Positions 1 through 19,635 of a stretch of 21,264 nucleotides of DNA are shown here, piece after piece. The DNA comes from a virus. Within the stretch, counting starts at the first letter, position 1, and each line of letters begins with the position of its first letter. The stretch spans positions 1 to 21,264 of the IMG/VR virus record IMGVR_UViG_3300011115_000344. One strand, 5' to 3'. Under the pieces are notes generated by a model that had not been told where the DNA came from, searched no databases, and was given only the letters and a program-made list of their open reading frames with translations. The translations under genes were made by a program, and so were the position numbers.

Positions 1-1661
1 CTAGCAAAGTCAGGAAGACGACTAAAAGTAATTTGAACGTTAGAAAATACTGGGACCATGTTTTGGTTAAAAATAGTGTGGCTGACACTAAAACCATCAA
101 TAATTCCTAGATACCTTAAGTTTTTTCCTAAGTGTAGTTCTACAGGGTATGCACCGAGGTATCCAATATCTGACGTAAATTTTTTGCGTAAATTGCTTTT
201 TAACTGGTATCCCAAGAGTGTGCGAAGCAAATACTCAATGTCGTACATTGTTCCTAATTCTTTAATTTGTTTTAACTCTTGAGTAATGCTGGTAAGTTCA
301 GCCGCTGTTCCAGAGTTCTCTGTGGTTACCTTATGATTTCCTACATGTGAATATATTTCGTTAACTGGTAAAGAGCCGTCAATCATAGCGTCAAGGTGTT
401 TAAAATCGTGCATCCTGTTGATTATGACGCTAAATGTTACGGTGCTGCTTGTAACGCTAGAGCCAATAAGTGGGACTTTATCTGTACCACTTGTCTGTAG
501 ACCAATGTCTACTTGAGGTGCACCAGCATACGCCATTGAAACTGTTGAAGGGTTATATTGGAATTGGAATCCATAACGACGAGTATTAATTCGTCTTGTC
601 TTTCCGTCTCCACCAAGTCCAGTAACTCCAGAATCATCAGGTCTCCACCATTTGCCATTTGCTTCTAGCCGTGAAGGGACAATGTAACTTTGAATCATAC
701 CTTTATACGGTGCACTATCTTTCCATAAATCTTCAGCATAAGACACTATTGCAGGTAAATTACCTTTATCAACTTTAAAATTTGCTAAGTTATTTGCAGT
801 AAAATAGTTCTCTTTGACTGCTGGAAAGTTATGTACAACAGGTTTAGTGTCATCTCCAACACCCGCCATGCTTCCGCTTGGCGGTTTGTTTGTGCTGGTG
901 TCACCACCTCCTCCGCCTTTTCCATCGGGAGTAGTGGTGGTAGTTTTAGCACCTCCATCACCTGTGGCTTTTGCTAACTCGGTTTTAGCCGTAGCGTACT
1001 CTTTAGACTTTTGCTTTAAAAAGTTTAAACAGTGTTTTTCATATTCGTGAATAGTTTCATACCAGAATACGTCATCTCGTATGTTAGCAATGCTTCTTGG
1101 GGCATTTCCACCACCACCAAAACTATCTGTTTCAGGGTTTAATTGGCTAGTCCAAATAGGTAAGTCATAATAAGTTAGTTTTCTTGTACCAAATTTTCTA
1201 GCAAACTCAGCCAGTGCATTGGTCCAATCTTGTTCATTTAAATCTTTACGAGCAACTGATTTTGTAGCGTCTACAGAATATACGTAGGCCGCATCAGGGT
1301 ATTGCAGCCCTAGGTTACCTAAAAGAGTGTCGTATTTTACTTCAGTGGTTGAACCTACAACAAAACTAAAGTCGTTATCAATACGTCCTCGTACCCCAGC
1401 AGCATTAACGCCTTCTATGTAATGGTCTTTATTAAAACTTGCAGATTGAATTCCTGCAGCAACTACTAGGTAGACTTTACCGCCAGAAATTCTGTAAGAA
1501 TTGATTTTTGTTTTAGCCAGACGTTTTTTTGCTTTAGCCGCTTGAGCAACGACTGCGGCATAGCAGGCTGCAGCAATTTTTTCTTTTGCTTTAGCAATGT
1601 TTGCTTCGTTAACAAGGCTTTGTGGCGGCGGTGTAGCCCGAATGATGATTGTGCCTGCCAT
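1..1661 (-). CDS. Baseplate / CIS-tube (LysM-type) protein, C-terminus cut by window edge
   Basis: The frame is open for 553 codons from the ATG at 1661 to the left edge, with no stop inside the window. Residues 1-60 are Ala/Lys-rich and probably helical. A middle region follows, then a Gly/Thr/Lys low-complexity linker (about residues 240-270), then a domain starting near 'RRYGFQFQYNPSTVSMAY' and ending with 'LRYLGIIDGFSVSHTIFN' and 'VQITFSRLPDF'. That pattern (an F-x-YNP strand, then a late 'GxIxxFSVxHTxFxxxMVPVxxxVxxTF' strand) is typical of the contractile-injection-system tube / LysM-associated baseplate family (PF19266-like), which links the tail tube to the baseplate hub. The position directly after the tape measure fits. 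The start overlaps the tape-measure stop (TAATG), with GGGGAG upstream. Family assignment is from memory of the motif. The open frame is certain; the role is likely. Confidence 0.7.
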   Translation of the reverse strand, partial: MAGTIIIRATPPPQSLVNEANIAKAKEKIAAACYAAVVAQAAKAKKRLAKTKINSYRISGGKVYLVVAAGIQSASFNKDHYIEGVNAAGVRGRIDNDFSFVVGSTTEVKYDTLLGNLGLQYPDAAYVYSVDATKSVARKDLNEQDWTNALAEFARKFGTRKLTYYDLPIWTSQLNPETDSFGGGGNAPRSIANIRDDVFWYETIHEYEKHCLNFLKQKSKEYATAKTELAKATGDGGAKTTTTTPDGKGGGGGDTSTNKPPSGSMAGVGDDTKPVVHNFPAVKENYFTANNLANFKVDKGNLPAIVSYAEDLWKDSAPYKGMIQSYIVPSRLEANGKWWRPDDSGVTGLGGDGKTRRINTRRYGFQFQYNPSTVSMAYAGAPQVDIGLQTSGTDKVPLIGSSVTSSTVTFSVIINRMHDFKHLDAMIDGSLPVNEIYSHVGNHKVTTENSGTAAELTSITQELKQIKELGTMYDIEYLLRTLLGYQLKSNLRKKFTSDIGYLGAYPVELHLGKNLRYLGIIDGFSVSHTIFNQNMVPVFSNVQITFSRLPDFA

Positions 1662-4192
1662 TATAGTCTCCCCATCGTTGAAGTTAATGTATCGTTGTCT
1701 AGATACTCTTTAATAAGTTTTGCAAAACGTCTTGCTTCAGATTCTGAAGCCTGTGCTACGGATACGTTTATAGTGACGTTGTTTCCGCTTCCATTACCAC
1801 CGCTGCTAGGACCATCTCCTCCACCAGTAGTACCCATACCTCCACCTAGGTTTGCACCTGTAGAAGTTCCTTTACCCAGCAATGTTCCGCCGCCACCAGA
1901 AGACGCACTAGTTCTACCGCCACCTGCAGCAGCAGGCTTTCCAACAGCAGCACCCTTATAGGACGAAGGTATCTTAGTACCATTACCTGCCGCACCTGAA
2001 GAGAACCCTAGTAGACCCGCATCAGCAGAGCCGCCCATACCACGGACAGAGTTAGACGAAGTCCTGCTGCCGCCTGCAACACCTGTGTTGCTTCTATAGT
2101 TTGCACCTAAGAATGGTGATGGGTCAACCCTTACGCCACCTTTCCAAAGTTCAAAGTGGAGGTGAGGTGCCTCAGAGAAACCTGTGTTACCCACCCTAGC
2201 AATTTGCTGGCCTTGAGTAACCTTCTGGCCAACGCTGACATCGAACCCACTTACGTGAGCGTACAAAGTTGAGTAGCCATTTCCATGGTCAACTTTTACT
2301 CTTAAACCATAACTTCTGTCGCTAGTACCCATTGTGTTTCGGGCAGTTCCACCAGTTTCCGTAACAGTTCCGTCAGCAGCAGCCATAATTCCTGTACCTT
2401 CTGCAGCAGACCAGTCAACAGCCCAGTGACCCTTTGGGTGAAGGTTGTCATAAACTCCGTAACCACAAACCATTCGGGCTCTACCTACAGGGTGAATAAG
2501 TTTAAAGTTAGCCCCAGCACCTGCACCAGCACTGTTACCACCAGCACCGTTGCTACTTCCACCGTCACCAGTAAACCCACCATAAAGTGCACCAGCGGTG
2601 GCTCCAATAGCAGCACCAATTCCTGTACCAAGACCTGGAATAATGCTTCCAACCATTGCACCCATACCACCCCAAGATGCGGCAGTACCAATAGCGTTAC
2701 CTACTTTACTGTTGACACTTCCTTGAGCAGAATCACCAGCAACAGCATCTCCAATAAAACCACCAGCAACACTGGCAAGCAACCCAAGACCAAAACCTTT
2801 ACCGCCTTTAAGTCCGCCACCTCTTCTAGGTGCAGGGGCTTTAGAGTATCTACCTGTCTTAGGGTCACGATAGCGACCTCCACCAGCGGCGACTGGGCCA
2901 CCGCCTTTAGGCCCAAGAACTCCTGCACCTCTTAAACTTTTTGTTAGTAATGCGTTAGTTAATAGTGCCCCACCAATATCCCCTAGACCACCTAATAGAC
3001 CGCCTGCAGCAGTCATTCCTCCAGCGATTGTAGGGTCTCTCATACCTAAATTAGTTCCAGCATTTAATTGAGCCATGGCCTGACCAGCAGGAGTCTTTAA
3101 GAACCCCTGCATAGCACCATTAAACTTCTCAATAACCACAACGGCTTTTTTCATACCTTCAATGTACGCCTCTGTTGCAGTCTCCATAGTTTTTGTTTGA
3201 GAAGTAACGGCACTATACTCAGACTGCATAGGGTTATCTCCAGCCTTCTTTTGAAGGCGAGCCATAAGTTTATCGTCGCTCAGGTCCATGTTTTCGCCGC
3301 CAGCAGCGTCAAGCATGTACTGGTAAGCCATACGCTGCTGAGTAGCATCTAACCCAGAATTTTTAAGGTTTTGCTCTAACGCACCACCCTGCATAGAGGT
3401 CTGTAATTCGGCTACAGTAAGTTTTTGCCCACCAGTCATACGTTCATTTAACTGAGAGAAGATTTCTCCCTGAGAAAGACGCTTACCTGTTATAGGGTCT
3501 GTTGTATATAACCCAAAGTTACGCATCAAAGAACTAGAGGTTGCACCACTAGTTAACCCGCCCAATGCTTGAGCAGCAGTAGCGTTATCTATGTTTAAAT
3601 ATTTAGCGGCATTTTTTGTAGATGTAAGTAAATTTTGGAATTGCCCTGCGTTAACTCCTGTGGCGTTAGCGTTAACTCCCATACCAGAAAAAATAGCGGC
3701 AGTAGCGGCATCCATTCCAAGACCTGTAATACCGCCCTTCATACCATTAAAAGTGGCGTTTGCTATTCCTGCCCTACCCCCAGCAGAACCTCCCTGCATA
3801 AGGTTAGCCCCGTAAAAACCTGATGCTCTAGTTATGGTTGTTTCAACGTCAGGCATAGCCATAAAGCCACCAGCAACAACGCCAGTAAGGGCCTTCAGAC
3901 CTCCTTGAGCAGCACCCATGCCCAAGTTCATTTTCCTGGTCCAGTCCCAAGTAGCCGCAACATTTCCTGTTGGAGGCATGAAACTGAAACCACCCATAGA
4001 TTGGGATAAACGGTTACCTGAACCTACACCTAAGCCTCGCTGACCAAATCCCCCGTTACCCATAGGCTGCATAGCACCGCTATTGGCAGTAGTAAACTTT
4101 TTAAAACTTTCGGTAAGTTTAAGGACAAGACGGTCCATTTTGGATAGGGCATTATTAGCCCCCTCAATGTCGCCAACTAAATCTTTAGCCAT
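1661..4192 (-). CDS. Tail tape measure protein with M23 peptidase domain
   Basis: This is the longest gene of the tail block (843 aa) and sits just after the tube and chaperone-like genes, the usual tape-measure place. The N-terminal ~470 residues are helical with many Ala/Gly/Met residues. A Gly-rich hydrophobic stretch with GxxxG spacing follows (about 470-550), a possible membrane-penetrating segment. Residues ~565-700 form an M23/LytM metallopeptidase. H589 and D593 (in GHWAVD), H646 (YAHVSG), H677 and H679 (HLHFE) match the zinc and catalytic set of lysostaphin-type enzymes with the family's spacing, so the enzyme looks intact. It should cut peptidoglycan cross-links during DNA entry. 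The last ~140 residues are Gly/Ser/Thr low complexity followed by a short charged helix. Expected role: sets tail length and opens the cell wall. The start overlaps the preceding 70-aa frame by 8 bases, with GAAGGA upstream. Confidence 0.93.
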   Translation of the reverse strand: MAKDLVGDIEGANNALSKMDRLVLKLTESFKKFTTANSGAMQPMGNGGFGQRGLGVGSGNRLSQSMGGFSFMPPTGNVAATWDWTRKMNLGMGAAQGGLKALTGVVAGGFMAMPDVETTITRASGFYGANLMQGGSAGGRAGIANATFNGMKGGITGLGMDAATAAIFSGMGVNANATGVNAGQFQNLLTSTKNAAKYLNIDNATAAQALGGLTSGATSSSLMRNFGLYTTDPITGKRLSQGEIFSQLNERMTGGQKLTVAELQTSMQGGALEQNLKNSGLDATQQRMAYQYMLDAAGGENMDLSDDKLMARLQKKAGDNPMQSEYSAVTSQTKTMETATEAYIEGMKKAVVVIEKFNGAMQGFLKTPAGQAMAQLNAGTNLGMRDPTIAGGMTAAGGLLGGLGDIGGALLTNALLTKSLRGAGVLGPKGGGPVAAGGGRYRDPKTGRYSKAPAPRRGGGLKGGKGFGLGLLASVAGGFIGDAVAGDSAQGSVNSKVGNAIGTAASWGGMGAMVGSIIPGLGTGIGAAIGATAGALYGGFTGDGGSSNGAGGNSAGAGAGANFKLIHPVGRARMVCGYGVYDNLHPKGHWAVDWSAAEGTGIMAAADGTVTETGGTARNTMGTSDRSYGLRVKVDHGNGYSTLYAHVSGFDVSVGQKVTQGQQIARVGNTGFSEAPHLHFELWKGGVRVDPSPFLGANYRSNTGVAGGSRTSSNSVRGMGGSADAGLLGFSSGAAGNGTKIPSSYKGAAVGKPAAAGGGRTSASSGGGGTLLGKGTSTGANLGGGMGTTGGGDGPSSGGNGSGNNVTINVSVAQASESEARRFAKLIKEYLDNDTLTSTMGRL

Positions 4193-4397
4193 TGTCCTTC
4201 ACCACCTTTCCGCTCGTTCTGGCTATTTCAAACCAGTTCAACCTTTCACGGCTAGACATCTCACGGATTTCCGTTAGAGTCCAACCTTTATACAACTTAG
4301 CCAAAGAGGCCCAAGCGTAAATTAACTCTTCATAACTTATTAGATTAGAGGCGAAACAAAGTACCGAGATTAATCGGCACCTGCACTTCACTCTCAC
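4185..4397 (-). CDS. Tail-assembly chaperone C-terminal frame, probably made by programmed frameshift
   Basis: A small frame (70 aa from a GTG at 4397, open back to a stop at 4410-4412) lies between the 268-aa gene and the tape measure and overlaps both. It has no ATG and no Shine-Dalgarno site before the GTG, so independent initiation looks poor. Its protein-like part begins about 'SYEELIYAWASLAKLYKGW' and carries aromatic and charged residues, like the T part of G/GT tail chaperones. It is in the +1 frame relative to the 268-aa gene. The upstream frame contains TTT followed by C (4356-4353) two codons before its stop, and Phe-tRNA could slip from TTT to TTC. That slip would give a fusion of about 321 aa ending at 4185. 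The open frame and overlap are seen; the frameshift is inferred from the position and from known G-GT pairs. Confidence 0.6.
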   Translation of the reverse strand: MRVKCRCRLISVLCFASNLISYEELIYAWASLAKLYKGWTLTEIREMSSRERLNWFEIARTSGKVVKDNG

Positions 4398-5151
4398 AAT
4401 CTGGGCAAGTTACATTTATTGGGTCAAATAGTGGGCCAGGGTTGCGGTCTGAGATAGCGTCTGCAATAGCACGTCTGTCGACAAGTCCTAATGCTTGAAT
4501 CTGTGTTTTACTAAAGACGGGTCTACCATCAATTTCTAATACGGTTTGTTCTAGCAGAGTTGTTAAAGACTCTGCAATGTTTGCTTCAGGGTTAGCCAAA
4601 AGTTTTTTCTGTGTCTTACCTGTTGGTAAAGTCACCAAAAACTCTTTGTTCTTACCTTTAACGATAAAGTTAGTTTCCTGAGCGTCAGGCAAAACCCTGC
4701 TCTTAATGTCTTGCAGAATGTTAACTTCTACAGGTTTAAACTCAGAGCATCCATTACAGTACCCAGATAGTTCTGCTGTTTCACCAAATGTTGCACGGTA
4801 AACACCTAGAAGGATGGCATCTCTGTCTCCAACTAGTAGGCTATCAAGCAACTCATCAGTTGCTTTAGTATTACCTAATGAAACGGTTGTACGGTTTACG
4901 ATTATGGAAAACATTTTTCCAGAACTTTCTGCTCTGATTAATGCTTCTTCATCTCTACCGTTTATTTCTCTTACAAGAGCAGTCTTGACAACCTCCCCGT
5001 CGATTACGATACCTCCAGGGAGGTCGACAAGAATGTCTGTAGGAGAAACAATTTTTGGTGCTTCTACGGTTTGTGGTTCGGATAGTGCTTGAGCAAGCAA
5101 GTCATTTGCTTTGTTAGCGTCGTCTGCTGCTCTTAGGGTTTGTTCTGCCAT
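4345..5151 (-). CDS. Baseplate hub / tail-assembly chaperone-like protein (T4 gp26-like)
   Basis: This 268-aa protein is encoded directly after the tail tube and before the tape measure. It has two CxxC pairs, C132/C135 (in GYCNGCSEF) and C249/C252 (in TCPDCESEV), which could bind one zinc. The stretch 'DAILLGVYRATFGETAEL' just before the first pair resembles the T4-type baseplate hub subunit (gp26-like) proteins I remember from T4-like phages. By position it could equally be the gpG-type tail-assembly chaperone, and the overlapping downstream frame supports that reading. A good Shine-Dalgarno site (AAGGAG) precedes the ATG at 5151. The first ~35 residues are a charged leader rich in Ala and Glu. 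Function is moderately certain at the level of a tail morphogenesis protein. Confidence 0.72.
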   Translation of the reverse strand: MAEQTLRAADDANKANDLLAQALSEPQTVEAPKIVSPTDILVDLPGGIVIDGEVVKTALVREINGRDEEALIRAESSGKMFSIIVNRTTVSLGNTKATDELLDSLLVGDRDAILLGVYRATFGETAELSGYCNGCSEFKPVEVNILQDIKSRVLPDAQETNFIVKGKNKEFLVTLPTGKTQKKLLANPEANIAESLTTLLEQTVLEIDGRPVFSKTQIQALGLVDRRAIADAISDRNPGPLFDPINVTCPDCESEVQVPINLGTLFRL

Positions 5152-5178: not shown

Positions 5179-5838
5179 TTAGTATGCTTCGTACTCAGAC
5201 TCACGTACTGCTGCTGAACCAGCGTCAGTTAGGTCCTTACCCCAGATAACTTCAAAACCTTCGTGAGTCAGAGACATCTGCTCAACCAAGATAGCGTTGT
5301 CACCTGCGTTTAGGTCTGAGTACGCTAGTGAAGTAATCCAAGCGTTGTACACCTTAAAACGCATTGAAACGTGGTCGTTGTAGGTAGTAGGGTTAGCACT
5401 GCCTGCAGTTGCGGTAGACGCCAGTGGGTGGCTTAGAACATCGATGTCAATGTCAACACGGAAGTCTGAAGCCGCAGTACGTGTAACGGTTCCTTGAACT
5501 GTCTGAAACAGTTGCTTCATCCACTTCCAGTTTTCGTCTGTACCTAGAAGCACACCACGCTGCATTGTTAGTGGAGCAAATGCAGTTTGGCCTGGAATCT
5601 GGTGAACAGTGGTGTTGTAGCCACCTTCACGGTAAGGGATTGAGTCAGTAGACACAGCCATACCTGATACCGAAGTAAACCCAAATGGAATTGACGCAAC
5701 TGCCTGTGACCAAGGGTTTGTGGCGTTAGCACCTGTGTTACCACCTGTTGTAACGTGTGGTTTGAAAGTAACTAGAAACCTAAAGTTTCTAATCGGGTCA
5801 GTTGCAATGTTAGAGCGGTTGTTTAATATAGTAGCCAT
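5179..5838 (-). CDS. Tail tube protein (contractile tail)
   Basis: The protein is 219 aa, the usual size for T4 gp19-type tubes, and follows the sheath gene by 17 bases. It opens 'RSNIATDPIRNFRFLVTF', the typical tube start with a 'DPxxNFRFxV' strand. It also has 'FTSVSGMAVSTDSIPYREGG' and an internal 'LTMQRGVLLGTDENWKWM', both common in tube subunits: a beta-sandwich that stacks as hexamer rings inside the sheath. The C-terminal half has 'YNAWITSLAYSDLNAGDNAI', also a tube hallmark. A strong Shine-Dalgarno site (AAAGGAG) precedes the ATG. It forms the DNA conduit and polymerises on the tape measure. No anomaly seen. Confidence 0.93.
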   Translation of the reverse strand: MATILNNRSNIATDPIRNFRFLVTFKPHVTTGGNTGANATNPWSQAVASIPFGFTSVSGMAVSTDSIPYREGGYNTTVHQIPGQTAFAPLTMQRGVLLGTDENWKWMKQLFQTVQGTVTRTAASDFRVDIDIDVLSHPLASTATAGSANPTTYNDHVSMRFKVYNAWITSLAYSDLNAGDNAILVEQMSLTHEGFEVIWGKDLTDAGSAAVRESEYEAY

Positions 5839-5855: not shown

Positions 5856-7436
5856 CTAGTTGCCAGTAATCTGGCTTAGGTTGATAACTACAAATTCAGC
5901 AGGGTACTCAAGAGCAACACCAACCTGAATGTTTACTACACCAGTAGCAATAGACTCTGGAGTATTGTTTTGGCTGTCTATCTTCACGTAGTAAGCCTCG
6001 GCAGGTGAGTTTCCACGCAGTCCACCTTGGTTACGGTATTCGTTTAAGAACACGCTCACTACAGTACGTAGTTGAGACCATAACTTTGTGTTGTTGTTGT
6101 TGAACACAGCGAACTGTGTAAGGTTCTGTAGTTGCTTTGTAATGTAAATCAAAGAACGACGAGTGCTTACATACTTGTTTGCAGTACCATCCTGAAGAAG
6201 AGTACGTGCACCCATAACAACTACCCCAGCACCTGGAAGGTTGCGGATAGCGTTTACAGAAGTTCCGTAAACTGGGCTACCAGAAGGACCATACACACCA
6301 GTGTTAAGTGAGTCTAGGTCTTTAGGTGAGAACGCACGTTCCAAAGAAATGGCTGTACGAATTCCCGCATTAATACCTGCTGGAGATTTAAATGGGCCAT
6401 ATGACTTATCGGTAGACAAGTAGATACCAGCAATAGCACCTGCAGGAGCAGTCTTACGAAGTGCTTGAGCACTACGAGCAACAGGGTCCTGAATGTAGTA
6501 GTGAGGGTAGTAACCTGCGGCACGTGATGATGCAGTACGTGCAGTGATGTATGCGATAGCCTGAGCGACAGTTAGGCTCGGTGCGGTATCGATAATCGCA
6601 AAACCGCTTCCTGAATTAGCCCATGCAATTAGTGCGTCATGAACTAAAGCCAAGTGAGCAGCAGCAGAGGCGTTACCGTCTACAACGAACTTCTCGTAAA
6701 TGTTTGGTGCAAAAACAAGAAGTGGGCGGTCGATAGCGTCAAACTCTGAAGTGCCGTCAGTAGCAAAAACTCCAGTGTAGTCAGTGTATACAGGGGCAGA
6801 ACCATCAGCACCACCAGTCAATGGTAGAACATTAGTGATTTCCTGTGTGGTTGGGGTGCCTGTAGAAGACAACGCCAAAGTAATGTAGTTTGAAGTAGCG
6901 TTTACTACAGTCTGAGCATAGTCAGCAGAAGCAGCGTTGTTAAACACTACGTTAGTGAACTGTTCAACAATAACGTCGCTGTTTCCGTCAACGTTAGCAG
7001 TGCCTAGATACGCAGTTGCTACTTCTTTCAAAACAGTTAAGTTGTAGTAGTTTGCTGTTGCAGTGCCAGTAATCTGGATACGAAGGTTGTTGCTATCTGC
7101 ACCTTTGTTAAGTGATGAAGCAGTTCCAAGGTTACCGCCAGATTTAGGGATAGCCACTGACGCAACTGCTGCACCAGAGCCAAGCACTCGGCGAACATAC
7201 AACTCTGAACCACCGTTAGCAAAGAACTGGTTTACACCAATAGTTGCAGGGTATGAAGCGTTGTAGCCACCAAATTGCTGTGTAAAGTCAAACCAAGAAG
7301 TAACAAGTGTTACTGTGGCAGGGCCTTGTGGGAAAGCACCAACAATAGCACCAGCGGCATTAGCCGAACCTGAGGCTTCAATAGGTGCAGGGATTAGAGT
7401 CTCATTTACATAGACTCCAGGACGACCATAGGTCAT
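5856..7436 (-). CDS. Contractile tail sheath protein
   Basis: The 526-aa protein begins 'TYGRPGVYVNETLIPAP', the classic sheath N-terminus with the PGVYV motif. It continues with 'FANGGSELYVRRVLG' at about residues 70-85. The conserved C-terminal domain contains 'TVVSVFLNEYRNQGGLRG', 'AYYVKIDSQNNTPESI' and a terminal 'EYPAEFVVINLSQITG'. These strands exchange between neighbours in the assembled sheath, and contraction drives the tube through the host envelope. This gene alone fixes the morphology as a myovirus type. The middle region is Thr/Ala/Asn-rich and variable, as is usual for surface insertions. An AAGGAG site lies before the ATG at 7436. Confidence 0.96.
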   Translation of the reverse strand: MTYGRPGVYVNETLIPAPIEASGSANAAGAIVGAFPQGPATVTLVTSWFDFTQQFGGYNASYPATIGVNQFFANGGSELYVRRVLGSGAAVASVAIPKSGGNLGTASSLNKGADSNNLRIQITGTATANYYNLTVLKEVATAYLGTANVDGNSDVIVEQFTNVVFNNAASADYAQTVVNATSNYITLALSSTGTPTTQEITNVLPLTGGADGSAPVYTDYTGVFATDGTSEFDAIDRPLLVFAPNIYEKFVVDGNASAAAHLALVHDALIAWANSGSGFAIIDTAPSLTVAQAIAYITARTASSRAAGYYPHYYIQDPVARSAQALRKTAPAGAIAGIYLSTDKSYGPFKSPAGINAGIRTAISLERAFSPKDLDSLNTGVYGPSGSPVYGTSVNAIRNLPGAGVVVMGARTLLQDGTANKYVSTRRSLIYITKQLQNLTQFAVFNNNNTKLWSQLRTVVSVFLNEYRNQGGLRGNSPAEAYYVKIDSQNNTPESIATGVVNIQVGVALEYPAEFVVINLSQITGN

Positions 7437-10062: not shown

Positions 10063-10353
10063 TTACTTCTTCTTTCCTGCTCGACGTTTATTTTCTTTAG
10101 CAACATTGTCTTTATGCTTCATTGCCTTCAGGTTAGACATACGGTCATCACCTGCACGACCCTTGTTGTTTTTATGGTCAACATCAGTATCTTTACTTAG
10201 TTTACCATTTTTAGACTCATAGTCTGCTCTAGCCTTATTTTTACTTGTAGTCTTCCAAGTACCATCGGCTTGCTTAGTCTTATACACATAGATAGGTCTA
10301 CCACCATTGGCTTTAGAGCCTTTATATGGGCCAAACTTCTTAGTCTCAGCCAT
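10063..10353 (-). CDS. HNH-nuclease-like small protein
   Basis: I chose the ATG at 10353 (96 aa) because AAGGAT lies just upstream; an earlier in-frame start at 10413 would lie mostly within the upstream gene. The N-terminal half has 'GGRPIYVYKTKQADGTWKTT' with two short strands. The C-terminal half has 'DVDHKNNKGRAGDDRMSNLK' and then 'AMKHKDNVAKEN'. The order D59-H60, N74-L75, H80/N83/N88 matches the HNH_3-type pattern (vDHxNgnxxDNRxxNLxxxxxxxNxxN) used by phage HNH endonucleases. It ends KRRAGKKK. It could be a packaging-associated or homing-type nuclease, or a DNA-binding relic, since the domain is minimal. Motif match is visible; activity is not proven. Confidence 0.66.
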   Translation of the reverse strand: MAETKKFGPYKGSKANGGRPIYVYKTKQADGTWKTTSKNKARADYESKNGKLSKDTDVDHKNNKGRAGDDRMSNLKAMKHKDNVAKENKRRAGKKK

Positions 10354-10579
10354 TGCGTTTATCCTTACCAATCTCAGGATGCTTCTTGTGGTACGACTTA
10401 GTGGCCTTAACACCCTGAGCCACAGTCTTAGACCCAGCCAGTTTAGTGAGATTCATGCGTTCTTTCTTACCAGACTTGCTAGTCTGCTCAACAATGATGT
10501 CGCCCTTTTTACCAGCACCACGGTCTTCTTTTTTCTTTGTGACTTTGTGCTTTAACCCGCCAGCAGTTACTTTAGCCAT
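10346..10579 (-). CDS. Basic lysine-rich small protein, unknown function
   Basis: A 77-aa, very basic protein with a Lys-rich first third (KHKVTKKKEDRGAGKKGD), a short strand-like segment 'IIVEQTSKSGKKERMNL' and 'LAGSKTVAQGVKATKSYHKK' toward the end. It overlaps the HNH-like gene by 8 bases and its ATG overlaps the previous stop (TAATG). No cysteines, no membrane segment, no family recognised. Confidence 0.6.
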   Translation of the reverse strand: MAKVTAGGLKHKVTKKKEDRGAGKKGDIIVEQTSKSGKKERMNLTKLAGSKTVAQGVKATKSYHKKHPEIGKDKRNG

Positions 10580-11916: not shown

Positions 11917-12522
11917 TTACTCTCCGTAAAGGTCAGAACCGTAAGTGCTAACATCATAACCAAAAGTTCTGTAATCTGATTTAGATGGTGTGGCGTATGC
12001 CTGAAACTGTGGGTCATTTACAAGTTCTTCAGCGTTCATCTGGTTGCAGTCAATTGTTACTACAGCCCAACGGTAACCGAAAGAGCCTCTAGGTAGCACC
12101 CTTGTAGGGACAAATACTTGACCACGATAAATAATTCTATCTTTAATGTGGCCGTTAGAGTTGGTAAGTAAAGTAGGTAAAAAACGACTTACTTCACCTA
12201 CGTTGATAACTAAGCGAAGTGTGTCTGAGGTATAGAAACCACGTTCATTCATGACGTTAGTTCCACGAACTAGTTGAGCCATAACTACAGGCATCTTGAA
12301 CGGTAGCATCCAGCGTCTACCCTTAGTGGCTGTAGATGATGACACGTCATAGATAGGGTCTACAATATCGGTGTAGTTGTCGTTTAGGTAGTAGTCTTGC
12401 CAACGCCACCAGTCAACTTCAACACCTACGGTAGCACCTAGTTCTTCACCAATTCCTTCATACATGGATTTGGCTTCATAGTCTACGCTGAACCTGCCGT
12501 TATCGGCTCCACCACCACGCAT
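11917..12522 (-). CDS. Head-closure / neck-type virion protein (putative)
   Basis: A 201-aa protein with an aromatic-rich segment 'GVEVDWWRWQDYYLNDNYTD' (around 33-52), then 'YDVSSSTATKGRRWMLPFKM', 'RGTNVMNERGFYTSDTLRL', and 'IIYRGQVFVPTRVLPRGSFG' followed by 'YRWAVVTIDCNQMNAEELVN'. The strand order and the 'RGQVFVPTRV...VVTIDCNQ' part resemble SPP1 gp16-type head-closure proteins that seal the connector after DNA packaging. It does not sit directly beside the adaptor gene because the fibre cluster intervenes, which is unusual. TAATG overlaps with the fibre gene. The assignment is by shape and elimination, not a firm motif. Confidence 0.5.
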   Translation of the reverse strand: MRGGGADNGRFSVDYEAKSMYEGIGEELGATVGVEVDWWRWQDYYLNDNYTDIVDPIYDVSSSTATKGRRWMLPFKMPVVMAQLVRGTNVMNERGFYTSDTLRLVINVGEVSRFLPTLLTNSNGHIKDRIIYRGQVFVPTRVLPRGSFGYRWAVVTIDCNQMNAEELVNDPQFQAYATPSKSDYRTFGYDVSTYGSDLYGE

Positions 12523-14486
12523 TACTTAATTCCGTAAATTTCCCAAGAAAAATCTGGGGTGTTACCTGATGTAGCAATAACCATGCTAGTTATCGCTCCT
12601 TCTATCCCTGAGTTCTGCCCATAGCCAAACCCGTTTTTATTTTGCCAAGAAACATGCTTTGTTGTTATGTTTAACGAAGGGTTCATAATGTCTACAATTA
12701 TTTGAGTACTTGTTGACTGAGTTGCTGTCGTTGGTTCATTTGTAATAAGGTACCCAGTCTCAGAGATATCCCCAGTCAAAGATGGTGTATTCGAATAGTT
12801 GCTGTATAAGTTCTTATACCCAGTTCCAGTACCATTAAACCTTAAAAGAAATCTACCAGTCGGTGCTCTTGATAGTCCAAGACCAGAAATAACTAACTGT
12901 ATGTTTTTATAGCCTGAAAAATCAGCACCTGAGATTAATGTCGATGAGCCCGAAGTTGCAGAGTTAGCGACTGTGCCTGAAGCAAATAAGGTGTATCGAG
13001 CCGCTTCTCCAGCGACAGAGACTGTCCAAGTAGTGTAAGTTCCTGTGCCATTAGTTTGGTCTACTAAGAACGTGACTGCTAGTGTACCCGTGTTGATGTT
13101 GGTGATAACTCCTTCAGCATAAGTTGCTGGAGAAGTAGCGTACGCAACACGAATTCTGGTGCCAACAGCAAGGGCCCCAACCTTGTTTACAGTAATTGCT
13201 TTAGAACCAAAACTAACTGAAAGGGAAGTGGAAGAAGTAATCCCATCATAACCAACACCTGCGGCACCTGCAGCACCAGTAGAACCTGTAGCCCCTGTAG
13301 TACCTGCAGTACCTGTAGCACCAGTAGCACCAGTCGCTCCAGTAGCACCTACGCTACCTGCTACCGAGAAAGTCCAAGCAGTGAAAGTACCCGTACCACC
13401 AATAGCATCCGCATTAACGGTAACAACTAGGCTGGCAATGTTAGTGATAATACCTTCAACATAGTTGGCTGGTGCAGCAGTATTTGCTACACGAACTCTA
13501 GTGCCTAATGCGTATGCACCAACTTTGTTTACGGTAATAGCCTTAGAACCTGTAGAAATTGAGATTGAGGTGGTAGAAGTCACCCCATCATAGCCAACGC
13601 CATCGGCACCGTTGGTTCCGTTAGTGCCAGCGGCACCAGTAGGTCCAGTAGAACCCTGAGGGCCAGTAGGTCCTGTTGGGCCAGTTGCACCAGTTGCACC
13701 AGTAGTTCCAGTAGCACCAGTTGCACCAGTGGCACCTACGTTACCTGCAACAGAGAAAGTCCAAGCAGTCTGTGTGCCAGAACCGCCAATAGCGTCAACG
13801 TTAACTGTGATAGAAGTATCCGCAACTAACCCGCTGATTACACCCTCAACATAGTTAGTTGGAGTAGAAGTGTGTGCGGCACGAACACGAGTACCGACTG
13901 CGTAAGCCCCAGTACTAGTAACAGTGAACGCTTTAGAGCCTGTAGAAATAGCCACAGAAGAAGTAGAAGTTACACCAGAATACCCTGGACCAGTAGGGCC
14001 AGTAATAGTTTGACCCACAGTTCCTGGAAGACCTGCAATGCTTACAGTCCAAGAACTTAAAGTTCCTGTACCTGACGTTTGGTCTACGTTAACAGTGATA
14101 GAGGTGTTTACAGTAAGTGCTGAGATTGTTCCTTCAACCCAGTTAGTTGCAGTGTTAATCACTCTAACTCGGTCTCCAAGTACAAATGCACCTGTGCTGG
14201 CTACAGTAAAGGTCTTAGACCCAGTACCGATAGCGACTGAGGAAGTTGAAGTTACACCATTATACCCAGCACCTGTTGCACCTGTAGAACCTGTAGCCCC
14301 TGTAGGGCCAGTAGTGTTTTGGAAAGCAAGAGAGTTCCAAGCAGTGGTGCCATCACCAATTTTAAAGTAGGTGGCGTTAGTTCCGCTGATTACATAGCCT
14401 AGTTCACCTTGTGCTAACACAGGGTTAGTGTTGCTCCAGTTGGTAGCAGTATCCCTGCGTACCTGAATTTTGGTTTTTACGGCCAT
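12522..14486 (-). CDS. Collagen-like tail fibre with four repeat modules
   Basis: A 654-aa adhesin. Residues 1-55 match the Mtd-type N-terminal fibre domain ('KIQVRRDTATNWSNTNPVLA', 'QGELGYV', 'FKIGDGTTAWNSL'), which usually attaches to the virion. Four ~80-residue beta modules follow, each starting 'GY(N/S/D)G(V/I)TS' and ending 'W T (V/F) S (V/I) A G', separated by collagen-like G-x-y runs rich in GATGATGPTGPTG. The C-terminal ~150 residues ('YTLFASGTVANSATSGSSTL' to 'DFSWEIYGIK') form a separate beta-rich, possibly receptor-binding, domain. Collagen-like segments build trimeric triple helices. AGGAGA precedes the ATG. The modules seem to have multiplied by duplication. Confidence 0.88.
   Translation of the reverse strand: MAVKTKIQVRRDTATNWSNTNPVLAQGELGYVISGTNATYFKIGDGTTAWNSLAFQNTTGPTGATGSTGATGAGYNGVTSTSSVAIGTGSKTFTVASTGAFVLGDRVRVINTATNWVEGTISALTVNTSITVNVDQTSGTGTLSSWTVSIAGLPGTVGQTITGPTGPGYSGVTSTSSVAISTGSKAFTVTSTGAYAVGTRVRAAHTSTPTNYVEGVISGLVADTSITVNVDAIGGSGTQTAWTFSVAGNVGATGATGATGTTGATGATGPTGPTGPQGSTGPTGAAGTNGTNGADGVGYDGVTSTTSISISTGSKAITVNKVGAYALGTRVRVANTAAPANYVEGIITNIASLVVTVNADAIGGTGTFTAWTFSVAGSVGATGATGATGATGTAGTTGATGSTGAAGAAGVGYDGITSSTSLSVSFGSKAITVNKVGALAVGTRIRVAYATSPATYAEGVITNINTGTLAVTFLVDQTNGTGTYTTWTVSVAGEAARYTLFASGTVANSATSGSSTLISGADFSGYKNIQLVISGLGLSRAPTGRFLLRFNGTGTGYKNLYSNYSNTPSLTGDISETGYLITNEPTTATQSTSTQIIVDIMNPSLNITTKHVSWQNKNGFGYGQNSGIEGAITSMVIATSGNTPDFSWEIYGIK
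13258..13362 (-). repeat. Collagen-like Gly-x-Thr/Ala tract between modules 3 and 4
   Basis: A run of nine-base-periodic codons (seen as repeats of accagtagc/cctgtagc on the plus strand) encodes about 35 residues with Gly in every third position. It is a recombination-prone, low-complexity DNA repeat. Confidence 0.75.
13600..13747 (-). repeat. Collagen-like tract between modules 2 and 3
   Basis: The longest G-x-y run of the gene (about 49 residues), with Pro and Thr in the x and y positions and a GPQGSTGPTG part. It is built of near-identical 9-base units such as accagttgc and would form a triple-helical rod in a trimer. Confidence 0.78.
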
Positions 14487-19191: not shown

Positions 19192-19635
19192 CTAAGATAG
19201 ATAAGCAAAGCCTGTAGTGGCAATGCTAAAAGTTATAGTTACAGCATTTGTAGACGGGTAAGTAATTTCGCCCTCGATAGTAAACCCAGTTACGTCAGTT
19301 GTAGTAACGTTTGGGTACATGCCCAAGTTATGTGTGATGTTCCAAGTAGATGATACCGCATTTTGAGCGTGGACATACGATGAACCCGCAGGACCAGCAG
19401 GGCCAGTTGCCCCAGTAGCACCAGTTGCACCAGTAGGGCCAACCGCACCTGCAACCCCCTGAGGACCACGTTGGCCAGGAACGCCTGGAAGGATAGCAAT
19501 ATCAACTTCTGGCTGTCCTTGGTCATTCGGTACACCAAAGTTAGCATCGCTATAAGTTGGTCCAGGAGCAGAAACTACCCCAGGCCCAGATTGTAAAAGA
19601 CCAATGTCAACTTCAGGTTTTGGAATAGTAGGCAT
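19192..19635 (-). CDS. Collagen-like short tail fibre/appendage protein
   Basis: A 147-aa protein with an N-terminal 'VDIGLLQSGPGVVSAPGPTY' region, a collagen-like run (residues ~52-83; GxxGxxG with 'GPTGATGATGATGPAGPAG'), and a C-terminal 'STWNITHNLGMYPNVTTTDV' with 'GEITYPSTNAVTITFS', a compact beta module that ends many phage fibres. The collagen part suggests a trimeric stalk. It overlaps the adaptor gene by TAATG, so it is coupled to a head/neck gene rather than to the tail block. It could be a head or neck appendage (whisker-like) instead of a tail fibre. Confidence 0.8.
   Translation of the reverse strand: MPTIPKPEVDIGLLQSGPGVVSAPGPTYSDANFGVPNDQGQPEVDIAILPGVPGQRGPQGVAGAVGPTGATGATGATGPAGPAGSSYVHAQNAVSSTWNITHNLGMYPNVTTTDVTGFTIEGEITYPSTNAVTITFSIATTGFAYLS
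19382..19492 (-). repeat. Collagen-like tract in the 147-aa protein
   Basis: A run of Gly every third residue (about 35 residues), encoded by nine-base near-repeats like those in the 654-aa fibre. Shared repeat units between the two genes could allow recombination. Confidence 0.75.

Follow-up and report, generated by a model that had tools for sequence, protein, structure and literature searches.

Frameshifting in tail chaperone genes is classical, the shift of phage lambda being -1 (PMC5009743). In lambda gpG/gpGT, P2 E/E' and Mu gp41/42 the chaperone gene lies between the tail tube and tape measure genes, and a short and a frameshift-extended form are made from one mRNA. A like arrangement was found on the minus strand of the stretch analysed here, the 21,264-nucleotide viral DNA of IMG/VR record IMGVR_UViG_3300011115_000344 (the window), in which the gene for a short tail assembly chaperone (TAC-N, 268 aa, 4345-5151) is placed between those for the tail tube protein (5179-5838) and the tape measure protein (1661-4192). 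In contrast to lambda (-1) and Mu (reported as -2), however, the predicted shift in the window is +1, at UUU-C and with a hairpin on its 5' side, and the N-terminal protein, which carries two CxxC pairs, belongs to the T4 gp26 type and not to the lambda G type. Judged from sequence, TTT-C is almost certainly the site of a real +1 programmed frameshift, and it is very probable that the full explanation of the locus is a short and a +1-shifted long tail chaperone made from one gene, with the 5' hairpin as part of the signal.

Several described systems share single features with this locus. T4 gp26 and gp51 belong to the same family (PHROG_150, PF12322), and gp51 probably has a C-terminal extension of the same kind, but T4 carries two separate genes, whereas the window has one gene plus a putative +1 shift. 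In the contractile-tailed Vandenendeviridae and Andersonviridae the chaperone gene likewise has a conserved slippery site near its 3' end and a downstream frame that is mis-annotated; their shift, in contrast, is -1, at GTTTTT, and a 5' hairpin is not reported for it (PMC12846349). The tail chaperone gene of HSTV-2, an archaeal myovirus, is entered in one listing as 'very likely' +1 (PMC5009743); unlike the clade of the window, this is a single case with an archaeal host. An earlier note on this DNA had called +1 shifting uncommon in tail chaperones; this holds, although HSTV-2 means that it is not unprecedented. The same P-site slip from UUU to UUC, often with CGN in the A site, is known from influenza PA-X (UCC UUU CGU), but there on eukaryotic ribosomes, at a very low rate, with no known stimulator and in unrelated genes (PMC8310308, PMC5009743). 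An engineered +1 site with a hairpin placed directly against the E site has also been described (PMC6321510); in contrast to the natural, covarying hairpin of the window, that construct was designed and used the RF2 CUUUGA site without RF2. In the open-access literature searched, we found neither an account of a +1 site in this family of gp26-type proteins nor one of a natural 5' hairpin that covaries next to a +1 site in bacteria.

The small frame that would supply the extension is open from stop to stop at 4185-4409 (minus strand, 74 codons) and lies in the +1 frame relative to the 268-aa gene. It contains no ATG, and its earliest GTG, at 4397, is deep within the 268-aa gene and has no Shine-Dalgarno sequence; the frame overlaps both this gene (4345-4409) and the start of the tape measure gene (ATG at 4192). 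Direct reading thus agreed with the earlier note, which had described a frame without ATG or ribosome binding site that overlapped both neighbours, with 4345-4409 open in both frames, and the gene order tube-chaperone-tape measure agreed with its placing of this frame at the T position of a G/GT pair, ahead of the tape measure gene. Within the shared segment, TTT-C (4356-4353) is followed by two sense codons (CGC, CTC) and the zero-frame stop TAA (4347-4345), again as described there. Reading TTTC as a single Phe yields a fusion of 321 aa, in which Phe266 is followed by Ala and the +1 frame contributes a T-like C-terminal extension of 55 aa and a stop (4185-4352, minus strand); both the length and the Phe266-Ala junction are those anticipated in the note.

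Relatives were collected from viral contigs (the close ones), through two profile searches (80 each), with a Streptomyces phage protein as query (18) and from cellular genomes (6), the latter including contigs of Actinomadura, Saccharothrix, Nonomuraea and Streptomyces. The annotated phage set contributed six records of five Streptomyces phages with 36-38% identity. The search patterns were TAC-N peptides in the body of the protein, the shift site being excluded, and the sample was therefore not selected for that site. De-duplication left 128 distinct loci, which form 68 clusters at 70% identity, go down to 26% in pairwise protein identity and span freshwater phages, Streptomyces phages and actinobacterial contigs. 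Two sequences, L123 and L197, end before the shift site, and for three loci with TTTCGTTTC the final, re-assigned TTTC position was used.

A single in-frame TTT-C was present within the last nine codons of the chaperone gene in all 128 loci, with the +1 frame open for more than 90 nt beyond the stop. The shift-site Phe codon was TTT in every locus and the next base C in every locus, against a TTT:TTC ratio of 441:343 for Phe codons elsewhere in the same genes and of 84:34 in the sole other well-conserved Phe column. The chance of finding TTT throughout would be about 1e-18 if the 68 clusters were independent; the clusters are related, so this figure is indicative only. The alignment of related phages that the earlier note had suggested as a check thus shows TTTC and the frame overlap kept throughout, and the invariant TTT-C supports its proposed slip of Phe-tRNA from TTT to TTC. 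The stop follows the TTT codon at a distance of two codons in 86 loci, three in 36 and five to six in the remaining 6. A sub-clade (L145, L148, L149, L151 and L158) has TTT-C six codons ahead of the stop and CTC or CCA as the A-site codon; one such 3' end reads TTT CTC GAC TTC GGA TGG ATT TGA. In many clades the +1 frame is closed only 14-29 nt upstream of TTTC, yet in every one of the 128 loci it stays open past the zero-frame stop, and the shift would therefore have to take place within the few codons around TTTC. In the first set of loci the -1 frame is closed within 89 nt.

Beyond the site, the +1 frame encodes one conserved domain of 50-80 aa in 128 of 128 loci, so that the +1 relation claimed in the earlier note, as opposed to the -1 of lambda, extends to the whole set. 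The domain carries the motif GW(T/S)LxEIxxxSxRERxNW and is predicted to form three helices (predicted local distance difference test, pLDDT, 83). Beyond the zero-frame stop, the extension had a pN/pS (the ratio of non-synonymous to synonymous differences) of 0.49, against 0.50 in the parent gene (115 pairs of moderate divergence), while the same DNA gave 0.93 and 1.11 when read in the other frames. A rival reading is that of a separate gene, translated by coupled re-initiation past the upstream stop, at a start that is weak or not AUG. This is how the small frame appears, as a separate hypothetical gene, in the records of Streptomyces phages BRock, LuckySocke, Alone3 and GiJojo, and in 75 of the 128 loci some ATG, GTG or TTG does occur after the shift site and before the W motif. 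The positions of these codons, however, are scattered over more than 15 alignment columns, and 53 loci have no start codon at all from the shift site up to the core motif; moreover, the part of the extension 5' of any ATG, GTG or TTG is equally selected (pN/pS 0.47). Independent initiation is therefore strongly disfavoured. A separate gene would also leave the invariant TTTC unexplained, and the record of phage pSt2308 has no such gene annotated; we regard this explanation as improbable.

The direction of the shift needs a separate argument, since +1 and -2 lead to the same frame and open frames alone cannot separate them; the earlier note had accordingly written '+1 (or -2)'. A -2 shift of the kind reported for Mu would re-read two nucleotides and insert one extra residue, giving Leu-Phe-Phe-Ala. 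The codons that precede TTT in the relatives are TTG, CTG, TTA, CTA, TTC, ATC and others, and a -2 slip would usually set tRNA-Phe on UGU, UAU or UCU, where re-pairing is poor. It would also give no role to the invariant C after TTT. Since this C allows re-pairing from UUU to UUC, the +1 part of the claim is favoured and the -2 part is quite improbable. The site is most simply read as one at which tRNA-Phe slips in the P site, from UUU to UUC.

The earlier note had missed a hairpin immediately 5' of the site, which is added here. In the window it reads GGTGCCGA-TTAATC-TCGGTACT (4359-4382, minus strand), with a stem of 9 bp and a hexaloop at 4373-4368; eight stem pairs were tested (4381-4374 with 4367-4360), and three bases separate this 8-pair stem from TTT. 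Folding z-scores, covariation, wobble/wobble pairs and same-protein recoding all bear on it. Along the gene, folding z peaks only in the 60 nt before TTTC (mean -1.64, 44% below -2), compared with -0.3 to -0.6 elsewhere. Val-Pro and Gly-Thr codons are partly complementary, and the informative pairs are therefore those that the protein does not force. The third-base/third-base pair -19/-10 was paired in 54 of 60 distinct sequences, against 27.4 expected by shuffling, and the pair -22/-7 in 48 of 60, against 30.5, while nine control third-base pairs showed no comparable excess (best p 0.02-0.04, uncorrected). In the alignment of the hairpin 88.7% of cells were paired, and double-sided changes numbered 51, compared with 16.5 +/- 3.3 after shuffling (none of 500 shuffles was as high) and 3-21 for slid structures. 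Watson-Crick type changes on the tree numbered at least nine for -19/-10 and at least seven for -22/-7. When the 30 nt before the site were compared with recodings of the same protein that used the gene's own codons, z was -1.97 in the freshwater clade, -1.66 in the Streptomyces clade (in a different register) and -1.04 in other actinophages, with control stretches at about 0.

These results bear directly on whether TTTC and the hairpin might be by-products of the protein sequence V-P-x-x-x-G-x-L-F-R/Q, with the +1 frame a chance or decaying open reading frame. Some pairing would indeed come free, as the Val-Pro ... Gly-Thr codons are partly self-complementary, but such an origin does not account for TTT in 128 of 128 loci beside mixed Phe codons elsewhere, for selection in the +1 frame only, for covarying wobble positions or for a hairpin whose stability, in three clades, exceeds that of same-protein recodings. 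It is very improbable, and already largely refuted. RNA polymerase slippage would likewise join the frames, but the longest homopolymer at the site (TTT) is too short and the flanking bases are almost never T in relatives, which makes it extremely improbable.

The protein upstream of the shift can be assigned by several routes. The earlier note had described it as gp26-like, with two zinc-type CxxC pairs, and the 268-aa protein matches PF12322 (T4_baseplate; 41.8 bits against a cut-off of 24.5, E=1.3e-10) and PHROG_150 (E=1.7e-8) and has CxxC pairs at C132/C135 and C249/C252. A PHROG_150 match was found in 42 of 42 family members. TAC-N and the extension were modelled separately, from window and viral-contig sequences. 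The AlphaFold2 model of the 268-aa protein had a pLDDT of 87; Foldseek matched it best to baseplate hub assembly proteins of the T4-like kind, with E down to 6e-19, and also to Gp26 of Aeromonas phage 25 (E=1.2e-4). The TAC-N model consists of two similar halves with one CxxC pair each, which suggests an internal duplication.

Both T4 proteins fall in PHROG_150, gp26 at profile positions 14-235 and gp51 at 13-280, and because of these spans gp51 looks like gp26 plus a C-terminal extension. We take the T4 chaperone pair to be gp26 (short) and gp51 (long), in agreement with the spans. A profile of the fusion aligned collinearly with the gp51 family (pairwise E=5e-4, probability only 31%); the alignment covers most of the fusion and takes in the extension, where SLNSISKMIPAERGFVLKL is set against TLTEIREMSSRERLNWFEI. 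T4-like phages are described, in two papers that cite Vladimirov, Gautam and Davidson (2022), as making their tail assembly chaperones without frameshifting, from two genes of which one is short and the other a longer fusion (PMC10885494, PMC12846349). Given the PHROG_150 spans, the fusion-gp51 alignment, the fold matches and this literature, the window most likely holds a one-gene version of the T4-like chaperone pair. The label 'hub/chaperone' in the earlier note is corrected here to tail assembly chaperone, with T4 gp26 corresponding to the short and gp51 to the long form.

A relative from an Acidobacteriales metagenome bin (L207, 28% identity; match end at about 3650-3830) has TTT TTT TTG, with the extension in the -1 frame, and is the single exception to the TTT-C/+1 arrangement. 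By sequence, then, the shift direction differs within the gp26-like family, being predicted as +1 in the clade of the window and -1 in L207. A search of the viral contigs with L207 gave no further members.

Several observations weigh against the +1 shift with a stimulatory 5' hairpin, or against parts of it. The codon after TTT is CGN or CAR in 117 of the 128 loci and CTC, CTT, CCA or CCT in 11; with ten different A-site codons, a simple rare-codon model is therefore unsupported. The covariation of the hairpin is inflated by the relatedness of the sequences, and a sign test on independent pairs pointed in the same direction for -19/-10 with too few pairs for significance. In the Streptomyces clade (L104-L144) the hairpin register is shifted by one base (CCCAC/GUGGG), its pairs barely vary and the synonymous positions are nearly invariant. 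A Shine-Dalgarno-like stimulator was sought in the 15 nt upstream, and pairing with the anti-Shine-Dalgarno sequence was weak in the window (-3.1 kcal/mol); the mean was -3.8, compared with -2.4 in the control. No clear 3' structure was seen in 60-nt windows placed 0-60 nt downstream (mean z -0.4 to -1.2), and a 3' stimulatory structure suggested by a single low z of -3.5 in the window (100 nt) was rejected as it was not found in most relatives. Homology of the extension to gp51 depends on the modest whole-protein profile match, the extension by itself giving E=0.1, and a fold search with the extension model returned no significant match.

Set against the conserved site, the conserved +1 coding, the conserved hairpin and the homology to T4 gp26/gp51 that sequence comparison indicates, these points leave a +1 shift as the preferred explanation, and from it we infer how the locus would work. 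Most ribosomes would reach the zero-frame stop and produce TAC-N. A fraction would slip +1 at UUU-C, the P-site tRNA-Phe re-pairing from UUU to UUC, and would pass the zero-frame stop to give the 321-aa long form (TAC-NC) with its helical C-terminal domain. The stem-loop would refold behind the ribosome against the E-site codon and probably pull or block the mRNA, so that a forward slip is favoured. On 70S ribosomes an engineered hairpin abutting the shift site gave more +1 and less -1 shifting, its effect being about 60% of that of an internal Shine-Dalgarno sequence and seen only without RF2 (PMC6321510). The natural hairpin is placed at the corresponding position, and we infer that it, too, probably stimulates the +1 shift. 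On the model of lambda G/GT, the tape measure protein would be coated during assembly by many copies of the short form and few of the long form, the latter recruiting tail tube subunits through its C-terminal domain.

Bacterial systems offer few cases of programmed +1 frameshifting, and a recent paper on a software tool states that a general motif for shifts in the forward direction had yet to be identified (PMC10885494). It seems likely that a large clade of Actinobacteria phages uses a natural UUU-C with a refolding 5' hairpin, and with neither a stop at the slip nor a Shine-Dalgarno sequence, as a standing switch between chaperone isoforms, and that the family makes this isoform pair in three ways, by +1 shifting (here), by -1 shifting (the Acidobacteriales relative) and from two genes (T4). 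The loci then present a single +1 element in more than 100 natural versions, in which the UUU-C core is invariant and the 5' hairpin covaries, so that a mechanism in which an upstream hairpin pushes the ribosome forward becomes directly testable in a natural setting, within a protein family in which the direction of the shift would have changed during evolution.

The missing long tail chaperone would also be identified in phages whose two frames are annotated separately, Streptomyces phage BRock being one of them. In annotated Streptomyces phages the two frames are given as separate proteins, mostly 'hypothetical', or the second is left unannotated. The start assigned to the +1 extension is not conserved among BRock, LuckySocke, Alone3 and GiJojo, and in pSt2308 the extension is unannotated. 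The annotations of the two frames should be joined. After a +1 shift the junction would read Leu-Phe-Ala-Asn in BRock, GiJojo and pSt2308 and Leu-Phe-Arg-Asn in LuckySocke and Alone3, compared with Leu-Phe-Ala-Ser in the window.

The genes around the chaperone are all on the minus strand. The tail tube gene matches Phage_T4_gp19 (E=4.6e-24), and upstream of it lies a contractile tail sheath gene (5856-7436; PHROG_23, E=2.9e-45). The tape measure protein (843 aa) is encoded by the gene that follows the chaperone gene and has matches to the tape-measure PHROG_10030 and to Peptidase_M23 (E=2.7e-29). The locus is read as the tail assembly chaperone region of a contractile-tailed phage, its host group probably being Actinobacteria. 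Scans of the whole window against Rfam and for tRNAs gave no match. The M23 peptidase domain of the tape measure protein, at 2120-2431, likely serves cell wall penetration. Further along the minus strand, a small open reading frame at 10063-10413 has a DVDHKNN...N pattern and is HNH endonuclease-like, and tail-fibre-like proteins with collagen-like G-x-T repeats (GATGATGPTG) are encoded at 12522-14486 and 19192-19635.

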